From Dysgonomonas sp. PF1-14 (GTDB lineage: Bacteria; Bacteroidota; Bacteroidia; Bacteroidales; Dysgonomonadaceae): a DNA stretch of 64,000 bases. Made by a program: the position numbers and the translations under genes. How positions within the stretch are numbered: the stretch's first letter is position 1; each line of letters begins with the position of its first letter. The stretch lies in assembly GCF_029892965.1 (NCBI RefSeq), contig NZ_JARXWN010000005.1, forward strand, positions 1-64,000, written 5' to 3'. The notes under the pieces were generated by a model, which was not told where the DNA came from, did not search any database, and saw only the letters and a program-made list of their open reading frames with translations. This document shows, in pieces, positions 19,447 through 28,018 of this stretch.

Positions 19447-20493
19447 TTAGTTATTCTCAGGTCTCAGCTTGCGAACTACTGCACCTGTACGCCACATTTC
19501 GCTTTCGCGCAGGGCTTTCAGTTCTTCTTCCAGTTTTTCGCGGTAGTCAGGTTTAGAGTTAGTGTCGATAGAGCGTTGAGCTTCGTTTCCGTTGGCTACT
19601 TCCGAGTATAGTTTTGCAAATACCGGTTTTGTAGCATCGTGGAAAGGAGTCATCCAGTCCAATGCACCACGCTGAGCTGTTGTAGAACAGTTAGCATACA
19701 TCCAGTCCATACCTTTTTCAGCAAACAGAGGCATCAATGACTGTGTAAGTTCTTCTACAGTTTCGTTGAATGCTTCGGACGGAGAGTGACCGTTTTCGCG
19801 CAATACTTCGTACTGTGCAAGTAGTATTCCCTGTATGGCACCCATCAGCGTACCGCGTTCGCCAGTAAGGTCTGAATATACTTCACGTTTGAAATCTGTT
19901 TCGAACAGGTAGCCCGAACCTACGCCGATACCAAGTGATACGGTGCGCTCGAATGCGCGGCCTGTAGCATCCTGAAAAATGGCATAGCTTGAATTTAGTC
20001 CGCGTCCTTCGAGGAACATGCGGCGAAGGCTTGTACCCGATCCTTTAGGTGCAACAAGGATTACGTCCACATCTGCCGGAGGAACAATTCCTGTGCGCTC
20101 CTTGTATGTGATACCGAATCCGTGTGAGAAATACAGTGCTTTGCCTGCTGTAAGGTAAGGTTTCAGACGAGGCCATACTTCTATCTGTGCTGCGTCAGAC
20201 AGCAGGTATTGTATGATAGTACCTCTCTCGGCTGCTTCTTCTATGTCGAACAGGGTTTCTCCCGGTACCCAACCGTCGGCAATGGCTTTTTCCCATGTTT
20301 TACCACCTTTACGTTGTCCGATGATAACGTTGAATCCGTTATCGCGAAGGTTCAGAGCCTGTCCGGGACCTTGCACACCGTAACCGATAACCGCAATAGT
20401 TTCGTTTTTTAGTACTTCTCTTGCTTTTTCCAAAGGAAATTCTTCACGGGTAACCACATTTTCAGTTACTCCTCCAAAATTCATTTCTGCCAT
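19447..20493 (-). CDS. ilvC: Ketol-acid reductoisomerase
   Basis: 348 residues, the class I (short) length. Converts acetolactate or acetohydroxybutyrate to the dihydroxy acid with NADPH and Mg2+. The N-terminal Rossmann domain carries IAVIGYGVQGPGQALNLRDNGFNVIIGQRKG. The knotted C-terminal domain has metal-binding acidic positions around DLTGERGTLMGAIQGILLAQYEVLRENGHSPSEAFNETVEE. The cofactor loop after the second strand (GQRKGGKTW) differs from the RxxS pattern of E. coli-type enzymes. Last gene of the ilv operon, 52 bp after the thioesterase gene and followed by a terminator. Confidence 0.97.
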   Translation of the reverse strand: MAEMNFGGVTENVVTREEFPLEKAREVLKNETIAVIGYGVQGPGQALNLRDNGFNVIIGQRKGGKTWEKAIADGWVPGETLFDIEEAAERGTIIQYLLSDAAQIEVWPRLKPYLTAGKALYFSHGFGITYKERTGIVPPADVDVILVAPKGSGTSLRRMFLEGRGLNSSYAIFQDATGRAFERTVSLGIGVGSGYLFETDFKREVYSDLTGERGTLMGAIQGILLAQYEVLRENGHSPSEAFNETVEELTQSLMPLFAEKGMDWMYANCSTTAQRGALDWMTPFHDATKPVFAKLYSEVANGNEAQRSIDTNSKPDYREKLEEELKALRESEMWRTGAVVRKLRPENN

Positions 20494-21351: not shown

Positions 21352-21912
21352 TTAACTGTTAGCTACTGATTTTTCCTTATACTTTTTGTCCAGTTCGGCA
21401 AGCATATCGCTTAGTCTCTCTATTTTAGACTTGGTAATAGCTACGCGCCCCGAACGGATAAACTGCAATACACCAATGCTCTTACTCAGCTCTTCGAAGA
21501 GGTCTTGCGTTTCCTGATAATGCCCTGTTTTTTCCAACACTACATTGTTCTCGTTGATGTCGAGTATGCGTGCGTTATGCTTACGTACCAGTTCTTCAAC
21601 TGAGGTTATTTTCAGAAAGTCAGCTGACGAAAGTTTATACAAAGCTATTTCCTGAAAAATAAGCTCTTCGTTCGTGTTATAATACGATTTCAGTACATCT
21701 ACACGCTTGTCTATTTGCAGGACTACCTTTTTGATCGTCTCTTCGTCGCAAAAAACAGTTATGGTAAACTTGTGTATGCCTTCGAGTGCTGATGCCGAGA
21801 CAGACAGGGTTTCTATATTCAGTTGGCGACGTGTGAAAACACTGGTTACCTGACTAAGCAGACCTACTGTGTTTTCGGAAAATATGGTTATTGTATATAA
21901 TGTTTTATCCAT
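21352..21912 (-). CDS. ilvN: Acetolactate synthase small (regulatory) subunit
   Basis: 186 residues. An ACT domain at about 4-80 (LYTITIFSENTVGLLSQVTSVFTRRQLNIETLSVSASALEGIHKFTITV) is followed by the ALS small-subunit C-terminal domain (about 95-180; ELALYKLSS, QFIRSGRVAITK). It binds branched-chain amino acids and gives feedback control to the catalytic IlvB subunit. Lies 89 bp downstream of ilvB; that gap contains a TTAGCAAATT/AATTTGCTAA inverted repeat. Confidence 0.95.
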   Translation of the reverse strand: MDKTLYTITIFSENTVGLLSQVTSVFTRRQLNIETLSVSASALEGIHKFTITVFCDEETIKKVVLQIDKRVDVLKSYYNTNEELIFQEIALYKLSSADFLKITSVEELVRKHNARILDINENNVVLEKTGHYQETQDLFEELSKSIGVLQFIRSGRVAITKSKIERLSDMLAELDKKYKEKSVANS

Positions 21913-22001: not shown

Positions 22002-23705
22002 TTATTCATTCCCCAATAATATATTCGTTACACAAGTGCCTGCCGGAACCATCGGGTAAACCATTCCTTTGGTTTCTACCTGTACATCGAGCAAGTACGC
22101 GCCTTTGTGAGCCAGCATACGTGCAATCGCGCTATCCAGATCGGCACGTTCCGATACTTTCTCGGCTGCAATATTGTATGCGTCTGCTATCTTTACAAAG
22201 TCGGGGTTGTTCATTGTCGTTTCGGAATAACGCTCATCAAAGAAGAGTTCCTGCCACTGGCGCACCATGCCTAAGAAATGATTGTTGAGGATAATAATCT
22301 TTACATCTACATTGTATTGCATTATCGTGCCCAGTTCCTGTATAGTCATTTGTATGCCGCCATCGCCTACAAATAGGCATACAGTGCGGTCGGGAGTGCC
22401 GTATTTCGCACCTATGGCAGCGGGTAATCCGAATCCCATCGTTCCCAGTCCGCCCGAAGTAACTACACTGCGCGTCTGTTTGTATCTGAAGTAGCGTACA
22501 GCCATCATCTGGTGCTGGCCTACATCAGTTACAAGAACAGCCTTATTACCAGTGGCTTCGCTGATCTTATTGATAACCTCGCCCATTTTCAGTTGTCCCG
22601 AATCGGGATATAGCTCATTTTTGATAACTACATTGTACTCTCTTTCGTAGCACTTCTTAAACTCACCCAGCCAATCGGGGTATGTTTTTTGTTTCAGCAG
22701 CGCGGTAACCTGTGGCAATGTATCTTTCACATCGCCTAAAACGCGTGCTGTAACGGTTACATTCTTATTTATCTCGGCTTTGTCTATATCGAAGTGAATC
22801 ACTTTCGCCTGTTTGGCGTAAGTTTTCAGATCACCTGTCACCCGATCGTCGAAACGCATACCTACAGCAATAAGTACATCGCATTCGTTTGTCATCTGGT
22901 TAGGAGCTACATTGCCGTGCATACCCAGCATTCCTACGTGCAGCGGATGATCGGAAGGCATAGCCGATAGTCCCAGAACGGTGGCTGCAACGGGGATACC
23001 TGATTTTTCGGCAAAGGCGATAAATTCTTTTTCAGCATTGCCGAGAATCACACCCTGACCAACTAATACAAGCGGTTTTTTTGCTTCGTTTATAATCTGT
23101 GCAGCCGTTTCTATTTCCGATTGCTTTACATCAGGTTTCGGCTGATAGCTGCGTATAAAGTCTGTTTTCTCGTATTTGTAAGTGTCAAACAATCCGAATT
23201 GCGCGTCTTTCGTTATATCCAGTATCACAGGGCCGGGACGTCCGGTAGAGGCAATGTAGAATGCCCGCGATACAGCCCAAGCAATGTCTTCGGGGCGGCG
23301 TATCTGGTATGCCCATTTGGTAACAGGTTGCATAATGCCTACTACATCGGCCTCCTGAAAGGCATCACTCCCCAAGAGCGATGAAGCTACCTGTCCCGAA
23401 ATGACAACGATAGGCGTACTGTCTATCATAGCATCGGCAATTCCTGTTACGGTATTGGTTGCACCAGGACCCGATGTTACCAGTGCTACACCTACTTTTC
23501 CCGATGTACGGGCATAGCCTTGTGCTGCGTGTGTTGCACCTTGTTCGTGGCGTACCAGTATATGATTTATTTCTTTCTTGTAGTCGTACAGACAGTCGAA
23601 TACGGGCATTATAGCTCCACCCGGATATCCGAATATAGTGTCTACCCCTTCATTCAGTAATGATTGTATAAGAGCCTGACTTCCTGTTATTTTGTTATTA
23701 TCCAT
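22002..23705 (-). CDS. ilvB: Acetolactate synthase large (catalytic) subunit
   Basis: 567 residues. Thiamine diphosphate enzyme condensing pyruvate with pyruvate or 2-ketobutyrate. N-terminal TPP-pyrimidine domain with GYPGGAIMPVFDCLYD and VRHEQGATHAAQGYAR (catalytic Glu), central FAD-type domain (HVGMLGMHGN), C-terminal TPP-pyrophosphate domain with the GDGGIQMTIQELGTIMQYN motif and NNHFLGMVRQWQELFF. It forms the holoenzyme with IlvN encoded just downstream. It starts 16 bp after the MDR reductase gene. Confidence 0.97.
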   Translation of the reverse strand: MDNNKITGSQALIQSLLNEGVDTIFGYPGGAIMPVFDCLYDYKKEINHILVRHEQGATHAAQGYARTSGKVGVALVTSGPGATNTVTGIADAMIDSTPIVVISGQVASSLLGSDAFQEADVVGIMQPVTKWAYQIRRPEDIAWAVSRAFYIASTGRPGPVILDITKDAQFGLFDTYKYEKTDFIRSYQPKPDVKQSEIETAAQIINEAKKPLVLVGQGVILGNAEKEFIAFAEKSGIPVAATVLGLSAMPSDHPLHVGMLGMHGNVAPNQMTNECDVLIAVGMRFDDRVTGDLKTYAKQAKVIHFDIDKAEINKNVTVTARVLGDVKDTLPQVTALLKQKTYPDWLGEFKKCYEREYNVVIKNELYPDSGQLKMGEVINKISEATGNKAVLVTDVGQHQMMAVRYFRYKQTRSVVTSGGLGTMGFGLPAAIGAKYGTPDRTVCLFVGDGGIQMTIQELGTIMQYNVDVKIIILNNHFLGMVRQWQELFFDERYSETTMNNPDFVKIADAYNIAAEKVSERADLDSAIARMLAHKGAYLLDVQVETKGMVYPMVPAGTCVTNILLGNE

Positions 23706-23721
23706 GATTTTATGTAGATAC

Positions 23722-24711
23722 TTATTGAACTTGAATGATATATTTCGTTTCTGTATTATTCTTTTTCATTTCTGCCAGATGTTGAGGCAGGTTGTCAAAG
23801 CTATTGACGGTGTAATTTCTGAGCCTGAGCGTACCGTTGCCTATTTTGCCCAGAAGTGTTTCCCCGTCCTGCATCAATGCTGCTACCTGTTTGTCGGTAG
23901 CATATTTGTGAAAGGCTCCGAGTGCTATCTCATGCAAAGAGATACAAGTGCTGAATGCTGATAGCGGAGCCACTTCGACTCGGTCTTGTATGGCGACCAT
24001 ATGTCCGTAATATCCGAGCATCGGGGCAAGGCTTGCTGCGTGTTGTCTGTTTACGGTATCAAATGCTGCATCGAAAAGGTTGCCGTTGAGCGATTCTACC
24101 ATTTTACTTTGCCACCCGGTTTCTTTATAGTCTATAGCTTTGATAACACCCATCCTTAAAAATTCGGTATGGTGTTTTGTGCTTGCCGTTACATATACAC
24201 GTGCATTGGCTGCTATAAGCAATTGTGTGAGGAAATATCCGACTGAGCCACCTGCACCACTTACAAGTACATTCCTACCACTGATGGCGGGTACTTTGCA
24301 GAATGCCTGCCACGCCGTTAGGGAAGGGCAGGGGAACGATGCGGCTGCAAAGTCACTTACCTTGTCGGGTATGTACATCAGTGCACGTCCTGCAACAATG
24401 GTATGTGTGCTAAAGCTGCCGTCGCGCGACAAGTCGGTATGATAACAAACTCTGGAGCCTGTGCGCAGATGCCCCATATTTTTGCCTGTAGCTATAATTA
24501 TGCCGGCAGCATCTACTCCGGGTACTGTATCGGGTTTCCATTCGGGATGGCCTCTTTCGATCAGTTTCCAATCCACAGGATTCAGACCTATGGCTGTGTT
24601 TTGTATAAGGACTTCGTTTTCACCTAAATTCCTTATCTTTTTATCTTTGAGTATGAGATCGGTGGGTTCACCTTTTTGTTGCCAGCACCACGATTTAGCA
24701 GTTATTTCCAT
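23722..24711 (-). CDS. Zinc-independent medium-chain dehydrogenase/reductase (quinone oxidoreductase-like)
   Basis: 329 residues. GroES-like N-terminal domain (ENEVLIQNTAIGLNPVDWKL, PGVDAAGIIIATG) and a Rossmann domain with the nucleotide-binding turn VLVSGAGGSVGYFLTQL. The zinc ligands of alcohol dehydrogenases are absent, which places it with the quinone reductase/enoyl reductase branch of the MDR superfamily. It is wedged between the DUF2628 genes and ilvB inside the ilv operon, with gaps of 15-16 bp, so it is transcribed with them. Whether it contributes to branched-chain metabolism or is simply carried along is not known. Confidence 0.88.
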   Translation of the reverse strand: MEITAKSWCWQQKGEPTDLILKDKKIRNLGENEVLIQNTAIGLNPVDWKLIERGHPEWKPDTVPGVDAAGIIIATGKNMGHLRTGSRVCYHTDLSRDGSFSTHTIVAGRALMYIPDKVSDFAAASFPCPSLTAWQAFCKVPAISGRNVLVSGAGGSVGYFLTQLLIAANARVYVTASTKHHTEFLRMGVIKAIDYKETGWQSKMVESLNGNLFDAAFDTVNRQHAASLAPMLGYYGHMVAIQDRVEVAPLSAFSTCISLHEIALGAFHKYATDKQVAALMQDGETLLGKIGNGTLRLRNYTVNSFDNLPQHLAEMKKNNTETKYIIQVQ

Positions 24712-24726
24712 TTTATGGTCAGAATA

Positions 24727-25248
24727 TTAAAAATAAAGACTTTTCATATAATTGGTAAAAGCATAAATTCCTATTGTGAGTACAAATACGGCAAAGGCTA
24801 CAACCGCAGGCCCTACAAGCGAAACTCCGCCTTCCTGCTCTATATTATCCAGTTGTGCTTCTGTACTTACATACATTTCTTTTGCCCGCTTTACGGTACG
24901 CTGTGCCTTTTTCATATAGAAAACATTGCCGTAGCAACTAGTTAATATAATTCCGGTAAACAATGTTGCTTTGTATGTATATATGCCGAGAACGAACAGA
25001 ATGAAATTGTTGAGAAACCCTATTCCCAGTACAAGGATGATCAGTTCTATGTACATCTTGCGATAGGCAAGCCAGAAGATGCTGAACAGAAATGCATAGG
25101 GATTGAATATAATGGATTCGCCCGCAAGCAGTCTCTTATATATTTTTTCATAATAGTCGGCACTTTTGCCGAAGAAAGTCCTGTAATAAAGGCTTTCGTC
25201 TATTATGTTGTTCAGTTCTGTCTCGTTATTTTGATCGTTGTACTCCAT
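24727..25248 (-). CDS. DUF2628-type membrane protein
   Basis: 173 residues. The DUF2628 pattern SLYYRTFFGKSADYYEKIYKRLLAGESIIFNPYAFLFSIFWLAYRKMYIELIIL is clear: a soluble N-terminal helix, then two close membrane helices (about 57-100) and a C-terminal membrane helix (about 145-168, VGPAVVAFAVFVLTIGIYAF). It is a paralogue of the next gene upstream, with the same layout. Function unknown. Located in the ilv operon, six bp after its paralogue. Confidence 0.8.
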   Translation of the reverse strand: MEYNDQNNETELNNIIDESLYYRTFFGKSADYYEKIYKRLLAGESIIFNPYAFLFSIFWLAYRKMYIELIILVLGIGFLNNFILFVLGIYTYKATLFTGIILTSCYGNVFYMKKAQRTVKRAKEMYVSTEAQLDNIEQEGGVSLVGPAVVAFAVFVLTIGIYAFTNYMKSLYF

Positions 25249-25254
25249 TTTAAA

Positions 25255-25752
25255 TTACATTACAGGATCACCCATTATAAATACTACAAATATAAAAAGG
25301 GCAATAAAAAATAACATCGGAATAGCGACTATAAGTAAAGAATCCAATATGTTGGTGCCACCTTCTTCTGATATGTACGAGAACTTATCACCTATTTTAT
25401 CATATTCATTCGCTTTTTCTATTGTTCTCATAGCTTTTTTTATATATAAATAATTACCTAAAAGCCCTAGTGTGAAAGAAAATATACCAAACGACAATAA
25501 GAAAAAAGAAGCTCCGAAAATAATGCCTGCTATATAGAGTCCGATATGAATCAATCCAATAATGATGGTCTCGATAGTCATTCTACGATAACAGAACCAA
25601 AATATGTTGCCAATGAGTGCATAGATATTTAAGTTGATGATAACTCCTTTTTTAACTTTATCTAAACACCTCAGATAATAATCTTCGCTGCTGCCAAAAA
25701 ATGCTGTATACATGGCTCTTTCTTCTATTTCTTTTAGAGGATCTCCTTCCAT
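25255..25752 (-). CDS. DUF2628-type membrane protein (paralogue)
   Basis: 165 residues. AMYTAFFGSSEDYYLRCLDKVKKGVIINLNIYALIGNIFWFCYRRMTIETIIIGLI matches its neighbour position by position, followed by hydrophobic segments and a C-terminal helix (LLIVAIPMLFFIALFIFVVFIM). It begins four bp after ilvD, so translation may be coupled. Tandem duplication inside an amino acid operon is unusual; no function is known to me. Confidence 0.8.
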   Translation of the reverse strand: MEGDPLKEIEERAMYTAFFGSSEDYYLRCLDKVKKGVIINLNIYALIGNIFWFCYRRMTIETIIIGLIHIGLYIAGIIFGASFFLLSFGIFSFTLGLLGNYLYIKKAMRTIEKANEYDKIGDKFSYISEEGGTNILDSLLIVAIPMLFFIALFIFVVFIMGDPVM

Positions 25753-25756
25753 TATA

Positions 25757-27589
25757 TTATTCCACTATCCTTATCGCACCTTTATCTGCCGAACTTACCA
25801 TGCTTGCATACGCACGCAGGGCTTTTGATACATAACGTTCCCTGTCGGGTTTGAAGGCGTTATTGCCTTTGGCGAGTTCTTCGTTGCGGCGTGCATCCAG
25901 TTCTGCATCCGACAGTTTTACGTTGATGGAACGTTCCGGTATGTTTATTTCTATGATGTCGCCATTGCGAACCAATCCGATAGCTCCGCCCGATGCTGCT
26001 TCGGGTGAAACGTGACCGATAGATAATCCCGAAGTGCCGCCCGAGAAACGTCCGTCAGTGATGAGGGCGCATTCTTTACCCAGATGTTTCGATTTGATGT
26101 AGGATGTAGGGTAGAGCATTTCCTGCATACCCGGCCCGCCTTTCGGCCCTTCGTAAGTGATGACTACTACATCTCCGGCTACTACCTCTCCTTTGAGGAT
26201 CCCTTCGCAGGCTGCATCCTGTGAAGGGAATACTTTTGCCGTTCCAGAGAATTTGAAAATACTTTCGTCTACGCCTGCTGTTTTCACTACGCAGCCGTCG
26301 AGGGCTATATTTCCTTTCAGTATGGCTAGTCCGCCATCTTTAGTGTAAGCGTGTTCCATGTCACGGATGCAACCTTCAGTTCTGTCTGTGTCTAAGCTTG
26401 GGAAGTAATTGTCCTGAGATCCCATTACCAGATTGAAACGGTTTCCGGGAGCCGATTTATATAATATCTCGGCTTCTCTGGATATAATAATGCTCTTGGT
26501 GATGTCGTATTTGTCTATTGCCTGAGCGAGTGTCATGCCGTCGGCACGCGATACCGATGTGTCTATCAGTCCGCCTTTGGCCAGTTCGTTCATTATACCC
26601 AGAATACCACCGGCACGGTTTACATCCTGTATATGGTATTTCTGCGTATTAGGTGCTACTTTACACAGACATGGCGTTTTGCGCGAAAGCTTATCTATGT
26701 CGTCCATTGTAAAATCCACTTCGCCTTCCTGTGCTATAGCCAGCAGGTGAAGTATTGTATTTGTAGAACCTCCCATTGCTATGTCGAGTGTCATGGCATT
26801 GAGGAAAGCCGTTTTGGTGGCTATATTGCGTGGCAGTACCGACAGGTCGCCGTCGCGGTAGTAGCGGTAAGCATTGGTTACGATTTGTTTTGCCGCATCG
26901 GTGAATAATTTCAGACGATTGGCATGGGTGGCTACCACTGTGCCATTGCCCGGCAAGGCAAGTCCGATTGCTTCGTTTAGGCAGTTCATCGAGTTGGCTG
27001 TAAACATACCCGAACACGATCCGCAGGTAGGGCAGGCGGCTTTTTCAATAGCTTCTACTTCCTTGTCGGAAACAGTATCGTCAGCAGCTTTTATCATGGC
27101 ATCTATCAAGTCTAGATGTTGGTTGTTCAGTTCTCCGGCTTCCATCGGCCCTCCGGATACAAATATGGTGGGGATGTTCAACCGCATGGCAGCCATCAGC
27201 ATTCCAGGTGTGATTTTGTCGCAGTTGCTGATACATACCATTGCATCAGCCTTATGGGCATTTACCATGTATTCTACACTATCGGCGATCAGGTCACGCG
27301 AGGGTAGGGAGTAGAGCATTCCATCGTGCCCCATCGCTATACCATCATCAATGGCTATGGTATTGAATTCGGCAGCAAAACAGCCTAATGCTTCTATTTC
27401 TGCTTTTATTTTCTGTCCTATATTGTGAAGGTGAACGTGTCCCGGTACAAATTGCGTGAAAGAATTGACAATGGCAATAAGCGGTTTACCCATTTGTTCT
27501 TCTTTCATTCCATTTGCCCTCCACAGGGCTCTTGCTCCGGCCATCCGCCTTCCTTGTGTACTTGTTGAACTTCTTAATGTAAATCCCAT
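25757..27589 (-). CDS. ilvD: Dihydroxy-acid dehydratase
   Basis: 610 residues, the length of the E. coli enzyme. The Fe-S enzyme dehydrates dihydroxyisovalerate and dihydroxymethylvalerate to the 2-keto acids. Cluster and active-site motifs are visible: [54 protein letters not shown], and near the C-terminus [24 protein letters not shown] with the catalytic Ser. It is the first structural gene of the ilv operon. The attenuator hairpin ends about 70 nt upstream of its start codon. Confidence 0.97.
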
Positions 27590-27658
27590 ATCTTTTTTAT
27601 TCCTTGTAAGCCTTTAGCTTATAGCTATCAGCAATTATAATTAAATAGGCAACTTTTA

Positions 27659-27692
27659 TAAAAAAAAGCCTTTCTCATACTTGAGAAAGGCT
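27659..27692 (-). terminator. Attenuator terminator of the ilv operon
   Basis: In the leader RNA, AGCCUUUCUC (27692-27683) pairs with GAGAAAGGCU (27676-27667) in a perfect 10-bp stem with a 6-nt loop, followed by eight Us (27667-27660). It stands between the leader peptide and ilvD, not after a gene, so it acts as a conditional terminator. Its 5' arm can pair instead with 27748-27740. Confidence 0.85.
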
Positions 27693-27739
27693 ATATCTAT
27701 TTTTATCCCTTAGATTTCTTTTTAATATCTATATACATA

Positions 27740-27748
27740 CCTTTCTCA
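27740..27748 (-). promoter_or_regulatory. Antiterminator strand overlapping the leader stop codon
   Basis: UGAGAAAGG (27748-27740) is perfectly complementary to CCUUUCUCA (27690-27682), the 5' arm of the terminator. It begins with the UGA stop codon of the leader peptide. A ribosome that finishes the leader masks it and lets the terminator form; a ribosome stalled in the Ile/Val/Leu run leaves it free to pair and blocks the terminator. Confidence 0.8.
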
Positions 27749-27811
27749 TTTATTCTGACCGACGAGGAGAATATCAATGACGAGGACGATATGTAAAAAG
27801 CAATTTGTCAT
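27746..27811 (-). CDS. ilvL: ilv operon leader peptide, 21 residues
   Basis: ATG at 27811-27809, TGA at 27748-27746. The peptide starts MTNCFL and continues H-I-V-L-V-I-D-I-L-L-V-G-QNK. Ten of 21 residues are Ile, Leu or Val, nine of them within ten codons, which is the hallmark of branched-chain amino acid attenuators (ilvL/leuL type). It follows a Bacteroidetes promoter by about 15 nt of untranslated leader. It precedes antiterminator and terminator segments positioned exactly for ribosome-mediated control of ilvD. The gene is too short for ordinary gene callers. Confidence 0.85.
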   Translation of the reverse strand: MTNCFLHIVLVIDILLVGQNK

Positions 27812-27833
27812 TATTTCTAACTAAAAGTGATCA

Positions 27834-27863
27834 CAAAGTTATAAACTTTTTTTTAGAAACAAA
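27834..27863 (-). promoter_or_regulatory. ilv operon promoter
   Basis: On the minus strand TTTG (27863-27860) and TAACTTTG (27841-27834), separated by 18 bp, fit the Bacteroidetes -33/-7 consensus (TTTG and TAnnTTTG). The predicted start is near 27827, 15 nt upstream of the leader peptide ATG. Confidence 0.75.
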
Positions 27864-28018
27864 TTTTATTCGTGTTTTTTTACTGTAAATTAGAGAAAAG
27901 TGTAACTCAATGTTGTGAAAATGCTGATTATGTTTATATATTTCAACTATCCGGCATCGTATTGCATCATATTAATATAACGATCAAACATTAATTATAA
28001 ACTTAACTATCTAAACTA

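Follow-up and report, generated by a model that had tools for sequence, protein, structure and literature searches.

A probable ribosome-mediated attenuator in front of ilvD in Dysgonomonas sp. PF1-14, with counterparts in other Bacteroidales

In the window, by which we mean the whole 64,000-nucleotide stretch of Dysgonomonas sp. PF1-14 DNA that was analysed, the minus strand carries, in this order, ilvD (dihydroxy-acid dehydratase, 25757–27589; NF009103 1072 bits, TIGR00110 789.5 bits), genes for two small proteins, an oxidoreductase-like gene, ilvB (acetolactate synthase large subunit, 22002–23705; TIGR00118 720 bits), ilvN (acetolactate synthase small subunit, 21352–21912; TIGR00119 84 bits, above cut-off), a weak thioesterase match and ilvC (ketol-acid reductoisomerase, 19447–20493; TIGR00465 329 bits). 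The two small proteins in the gap between ilvD and ilvB (23722–25752) had no NCBIfam match, and the oxidoreductase-like gene there was below its cut-offs. Gene order suggests that ilvB, ilvN and ilvC share one transcript with ilvD. Among the best 80 named contigs, the closest named ilvD was that of Dysgonomonas mossii (90%). The same genome has a second, distant IlvD-like gene (C4:153537–155189; L002), which is below the family cut-off and lacks a leader of the kind described here.

Upstream of ilvD the same strand carries a Bacteroidetes-type promoter, composed of TTTG (27863–27860), an 18-nt gap and TAACTTTG (27841–27834); we take TTTG/TAnnTTTG to be the promoter consensus of the Bacteroidetes. 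A 21-codon leader peptide frame, MTNCFLHIVLVIDILLVGQNK (27811–27746, with its UGA at 27748–27746), follows, in which ten codons specify Ile, Leu or Val, nine of them within codons 8–17. The stop codon opens a 9-nt antiterminator segment, UGAGAAAGG (27748–27740), that is perfectly complementary to CCUUUCUCA (27690–27682). The latter is part of the 5' arm AGCCUUUCUCA (27692–27682), which folding and aligned pairing place in both the antiterminator and a predicted intrinsic terminator (27692–27660; an 11-bp stem, a 4-nt AGUA loop and eight Us, from folding and alignment), and ilvD, the first gene 3' of the leader, starts 70 nt past the U tract. The parts observed at this site are confirmed: re-reading the minus strand returned the leader frame and its nine-in-ten codon run as originally predicted, and the coordinates of the UGA-led segment and of its perfect complement in the 5' arm were borne out on rechecking. 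Two details were amended. The terminator lies where it had been placed and has its eight Us, with a stem of 11 bp by folding rather than 10 bp, and the promoter is present, with 22 nt rather than 15 nt between the end of its -7 box and the leader ATG; a distance of 15 nt would suit the interval from the putative start site to the ATG.

Each of these parts is improbable by chance without being decisive, and the main weight of the argument is the comparison with relatives. Among 5000 dinucleotide shuffles of the 300 nt preceding ilvD, 3 had an ATG frame in which a ten-codon run contained nine Ile, Leu or Val, and the pairing of the segment region with the 5' arm was matched by 5 of 2000 mononucleotide shuffles. 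Dinucleotide shuffles gave an equally good fold energy in 1 of 200 cases for 27658–27735, in 3 of 200 for the whole leader and in 18 of 200 for 27658–27770. Rfam 15 gave no match at the ilvD site at gathering score, RF01692 included; no tRNAs or Rfam families were found in the 64-kb window, and the 271-nt leader region had no match in a plasmid collection. Eleven Rfam matches on 27560–27900 at a relaxed threshold (PyrR, PyrG_leader, Phe_leader and others) were far under their cut-offs and were taken as chance.

For the comparison, 120 ilvD loci were assembled from the genus, from the family outside the genus (15 read) and from the best 80 named contigs; an ilvD match was present in 24 of 25 genus genomes and in 60 of 66 family genomes. 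A leader was called where an ATG frame with at least seven Ile, Leu or Val in ten codons lay no more than 500 nt upstream of ilvD. Leaders were called in this way at 88 of the 120 loci and at 84 once three duplicates (L041, L042 and L043, on the same contigs as L025, L005 and L007) and one spurious frame (L105) had been removed. By record label, these 84 include Bacteroides, Phocaeicola, Parabacteroides, Tannerella, Paludibacter and Barnesiella. Absence of the leader frame from relatives had been named in advance as grounds for abandoning the original prediction; the frame is kept in all 24 genus genomes with an ilvD match, each of which also has the hairpin, and in other Bacteroidales. A hairpin 3' of the leader was found at all 84 loci by a lenient finder (at least eight pairs, and at least five Us in the last 3 plus next 8 nt) and at 63 by a strict one, which required an unbroken stem and 7 T in 11; the 21 that failed include Phocaeicola vulgatus ATCC 8482 (L099), with its short U tract. 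In fixed 300-nt windows, 82 of 113 loci reached seven Ile, Leu or Val in ten codons; dinucleotide shuffles did so in 94 of 3390 cases (2.8%) and reverse strands in 7 of 113. At 82 of the 84 loci the 60 nt before the leader ATG contain TAnnTTTG, against 3.5% of mononucleotide shuffles, and as a motif it speaks against a transcription start downstream of the leader. Two contig labels look wrong: a 'Prevotella'-labelled contig (L041) shares its length and its leader with L025, from the genus Dysgonomonas, and a 'Pseudoflavonifractor'-labelled contig (L116) has an ilvD that is 78% identical to that of the window.

The encoded peptides are hydrophobic and 17–31 residues long, and their sequences vary between groups while the coding of Ile, Leu and Val is kept, with all three amino acids present in 82 of the 84. 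In at least nine loci (L073, L076, L082, L088, L092, L098, L102, L114 and L120) the reading frame extends through the antiterminator segment to a stop about 20 nt beyond it, where a terminating ribosome would sit downstream of the segment; overlap of the stop codon with the segment is therefore not general.

About 26 of the 114 usable ilvD loci have no such leader. The 36 loci outside the 84 comprise these 26, the three duplicates, four in which the element is present but sub-threshold or truncated where the contig ends (L047, L057, L061 and L091), two with too little upstream DNA (L053 and L090) and one distant paralogue, the L002 gene mentioned above. One leader-less locus of the Bacteroidia (L104) has the motif hairpin before ilvD; the others had neither an Ile/Leu/Val frame at threshold nor, close to ilvD, the hairpin core string within an element of this type, a search that diverged copies may escape. 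Of the 15 loci read from the rest of the family, nine lack the leader, so that the element is not universal.

Across the 84 loci, the duplex between segment and arm has a median energy of -17.0 kcal/mol (weakest -10.3), a strength equalled by 18 of 1680 mononucleotide shuffles. In 67 loci the own arm pairs better than the average of 25 foreign arms, and in the remaining 17 it pairs no better. An alignment (A1) was made of 67 of the 82 distinct cut-outs, leaving out near-copies (L009, L013, L015 and L017), three further loci (L109, L112 and L113) and eight whose leader passes the segment (the nine listed above, L082 excepted). Compensatory stem changes, which had been proposed as a check, were found in part. 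The antiterminator has a paired fraction of 94.5%, 4 of its 9 pairs have changed on both sides, and neither its pairing nor its score was reached by any of 500 column shuffles; for the terminator the figures are 96.9% and 7 of 11 pairs. The covariation score does not favour the true register of the antiterminator (0.126, 12 cells) over a slide of +2 columns (0.128, 12 cells), and it is the paired percentage that separates the two (94.5 vs 68.5); support for the antiterminator thus comes from that percentage and from swaps of whole segments. In these, segment and arm have changed together, as in GCGGAAAGG/CCUUUCCGC of the Barnesiella-labelled L107, AGGGAAAGG/CCUUUCCCU of the Paludibacteraceae-labelled L091 and GGAGAAAGG/CCUUUCUCC of Parabacteroides.

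One explanation for these data is that the RNA and not the ribosome is the sensor, as in a riboswitch or a protein-binding leader, for which a terminator and an antiterminator alone would suffice and with which the strong conservation of the GAGAAAGG/CCUUUCUC core could be reconciled. We consider this very unlikely. The RNAalifold consensus of the 67 sequences is the terminator alone, with no aptamer fold beyond it, the site lacks an Rfam match at gathering score, and upstream it is the coding of Ile, Leu and Val that is kept, in sequences that differ by group. Conservation of the core is itself expected from three-way pairing, and CCUUUCUC is nearly invariant, as befits a strand obliged to pair with two partners.

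We propose instead that the ilv operon is under the control of a ribosome-mediated transcription attenuator, and we hold this with high confidence. RNA polymerase would start some 15 nt upstream of the leader ATG, and a ribosome would then translate the 21-codon leader. When charged Ile-, Leu- and Val-tRNA are plentiful, the ribosome would reach the UGA and cover UGAGAAAGG, leaving CCUUUCUCA free to pair with the 3' arm once that is made, and transcription would stop after the eight Us. Should any one of the three amino acids be short, the ribosome would stall in codons 8–17, and the free UGAGAAAGG would take CCUUUCUCA before the 3' arm of the terminator exists; with CCUUUCUCA captured, the polymerase would enter ilvD and then, to judge by gene order, ilvB, ilvN and ilvC. 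The spacing is in keeping with this. The Ile/Leu/Val run ends 12 nt before the segment in the window, and the distance from the last such codon to the segment has a median of 11 nt over the 84 loci (range 7–41), which is about the downstream reach of a ribosome, given as up to 12 nt (PMC4833913).

Folding was calculated for the window transcript cut before the 3' arm, with a ribosome stalled at codon 8, 10, 12, 14, 16 or 17, at the stop codon, or absent. The probability of the antiterminator was 0.97–0.98 in the stalled states, 0.00 with the ribosome at the stop and 0.92 without a ribosome, and of the modelled ribosome positions only the stop codon excludes it. Across the 84 loci, the antiterminator was above 0.5 in 83 when the ribosome was stalled, below 0.1 in 83 when it was at the stop and above 0.5 in 64 without a ribosome. 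The footprint of the ribosome was assumed, and at the stop it masks the segment by construction, so the calculation is a test of geometry only. Before the 5' arm has been made, the transcript can adopt a 1:2-type structure of -16.4 kcal/mol, a candidate for a protector hairpin like those of trp and his leaders, and once the arm is present the antiterminator fold is lower (-22.9). At equilibrium, the full-length RNA has the terminator at 0.88–0.97 in all eight modelled states; as the terminator always wins there, the decision must fall during transcription, that is, under kinetic control.

Codon choice in the leaders is strong. All three Val codons of the window leader are GTC, though in ten neighbouring genes GTC makes up 6% of the codons for Val; of the leader's four Leu codons three are CTC, against 13% in the same genes. 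When expectations are drawn from each locus's own ilvD, the 84 leaders have 182 GTC codons where about 43 are expected, 12 GTA where about 102 are expected and 193 ATT where about 90 are expected, and the genus leaders have 82 CTC codons against about 11. ATA is avoided among the Ile codons of the 84 leaders. The biased codons may serve starvation sensitivity, RNA structure or both.

A covariance model of the ilv element, R1, was used to look for further copies. In the same genome it scored 104.5 bits at the ilvD site, 49.4 bits at a MLAHSIIISSLIILWRNLG leader with terminator before leuA (C10:60307–60435; L192) and 35.1 bits at MNFLLTNTFWWWHSQLKRS (WWW) before trpB (C11:18691–18812; L193), the identities of LeuA and TrpB having been checked with NCBIfam. 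The trpB site is Bacteroid-trp by RF01692 (53.5 bits, cut-off 49) and served as a positive control. A His leader, MNKTMHHHHFILLPCGK (HHHH), with a terminator lies upstream of hisG in the same genome (contig C2; L286). Two aspartate kinase genes above the family cut-off had no obvious leader in about 420 nt upstream. Weaker R1 matches in this genome (L195–L200) looked like chance on reading.

In a sample of the order, the gene downstream of the element at 65 loci was ilvD (39), leuA (21), ilvB (2, at one site), gltB (1), hisG (1) or another gene (1). These loci are mostly the best-scoring ones, with two sites in twice (L218/L231 and L227/L230) and L201, L202, L205 and L206 not recounted; their downstream genes were named by short motifs that we take to be characteristic, five of the proteins being checked with NCBIfam. 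In six Bacteroidales genomes (L230–L235) two R1 matches stand in series, before ilvD in five and before ilvB in one. Each serial copy has an Ile/Leu/Val frame and a terminator, with segment-to-arm duplexes of -8.0 to -17.7 kcal/mol, and the first frame starts with ATG in L230 and with GTG in L234. Another R1 match (L239) lies before a gene for the large subunit of glutamate synthase, with a frame, MKTKHTSFANKHAYKHNKIVQ, that is rich in Lys, His and Asn and not in Ile, Leu and Val.

Ten of 16 R1 matches read in a sample of the class have an Ile/Leu/Val-rich frame, followed by ilvD, leuA, ilvB, ilvE or an ilvN-like gene (five checked with NCBIfam, the ilvN-like one below cut-off), and six do not. 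R1 matched at E <= 0.001 in 73 of 149 genomes of the order and 56 of 148 of the class, counts that are not taken as prevalence given these six matches. Among 40 further upstream regions read from the class and phylum, L155 and L175, which belong to one other family of the class, have directly before ilvD a terminator and an Ile/Val leader of another type; L151 and L152, from the window's own order, have a leader of the Bacteroidales type, and L184 and a few others are less clear candidates. In that other family, L280 likewise has a differing Ile/Val leader and a terminator before an ilvN-like gene, with a second R1 match about 30 nt on.

The six class matches without an Ile/Leu/Val leader, and the hairpin that L104 keeps before ilvD without one, are what might be expected if the hairpin were a constitutive terminator, ending an unrelated short transcript or read-through from upstream, and the leader frame were incidental. 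We give this very little credence, as the leader, its Ile/Leu/Val content, the promoter box and the complementary segment co-occur in most of the 84 loci, far above shuffles. A reading in which the product of the frame is a functional small (membrane) protein and termination is secondary would suit the hydrophobic peptides of 17–31 residues and the slight excess of synonymous codon differences in frame (0.25, against 0.16 out of frame, in 13 genus leaders of 20 codons), but this is scarcely credible when the peptide sequences diverge widely while Ile/Leu/Val content stays, the trpB and hisG leaders hold Trp and His instead, and the stop codon in the window sits at the antiterminator.

On balance, we favour the view that leader-peptide attenuation broadly governs amino-acid biosynthesis in Bacteroidales (ilvD, leuA, ilvB, trp, his and perhaps glutamate synthase), with two Ile/Leu/Val attenuators acting as a two-step gate in some lineages. 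Were such broad and stacked attenuation real, transcription and translation would be tightly coupled in this phylum. Bacteroidetes ribosomes hardly use Shine–Dalgarno pairing. As the mechanism needs a ribosome that keeps pace with the polymerase, transcription–translation coupling in Bacteroidetes becomes a simple reporter question. The Bacteroidales gain a concrete and widely conserved candidate sensor of branched-chain amino acids that is absent from Rfam 15, and R1 could help annotation.

The ilvGMEDA, leu, trp and his attenuators of Escherichia coli combine codons for the product amino acid with a terminator and a mutually exclusive antiterminator, ribosome position being the switch. The ilvD leader shares its regulatory codons, terminator, exclusive antiterminator and proposed ribosome-position switch with them and is likened to them by this arrangement. 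It differs in that its segment opens with the stop codon, its promoter is of the Bacteroidetes type and any protector hairpin is putative; unlike the textbook design, its cut transcript favours the antiterminator when no ribosome is present (0.92). Branched-chain leader-peptide attenuation is described for Actinobacteria (PMC1262725, PMC11857589) and Staphylococcus aureus (PMC5794164); it concerns the same amino acids and pathway, in other phyla. Tandem attenuators are reported for Salmonella mgtCBR (PMC3641672), where two leader frames stand in series before one operon as in our six tandem sites; its genes and signals are different, and the pairs found here repeat an Ile/Leu/Val leader.

Within the Bacteroidetes, a transcriptome study of Flavobacterium psychrophilum speaks of 'strong clues' for leader-peptide attenuation before amino-acid operons (PMC9723704); this is the same phylum as the ilvD site, and the passage gives no sites or alignment. 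The ilvD leaders of Flavobacteriaceae type (a probable family assignment) differ in sequence from the Bacteroidales type. A transcript map of B. thetaiotaomicron mentions small frames reminiscent of leader-peptide attenuation (PMC7366714). In the literature covered, which comprised titles, the openings of abstracts and passages, no ilvD or leuA attenuator in Bacteroidales was found; two older comparative studies, Vitreschak 2004 and Lopatovskaya 2010, may include related predictions. A closely comparable element is Bacteroid-trp (RF01692), a predicted leader-peptide element of the same phylum that is listed by Weinberg et al. 2010 (PMC2864571). It has the same order of leader then terminator, and R1 reaches its site at 35.1 bits; it has Trp codons and trp genes, and the ilvD site is without an RF01692 match. 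The reading of the ilvD leader as a classical ilv/leu attenuator is supported, and the remark that such leaders are much better known from other phyla than from Bacteroidetes is qualified by Bacteroid-trp and by the general statement on F. psychrophilum (PMC9723704). The element is not surprising in principle; it is solid, occurs widely across the order and is missing from Rfam, a new family with the mechanism of a classical ribosome-mediated attenuator, one already predicted in Bacteroidetes for trp.
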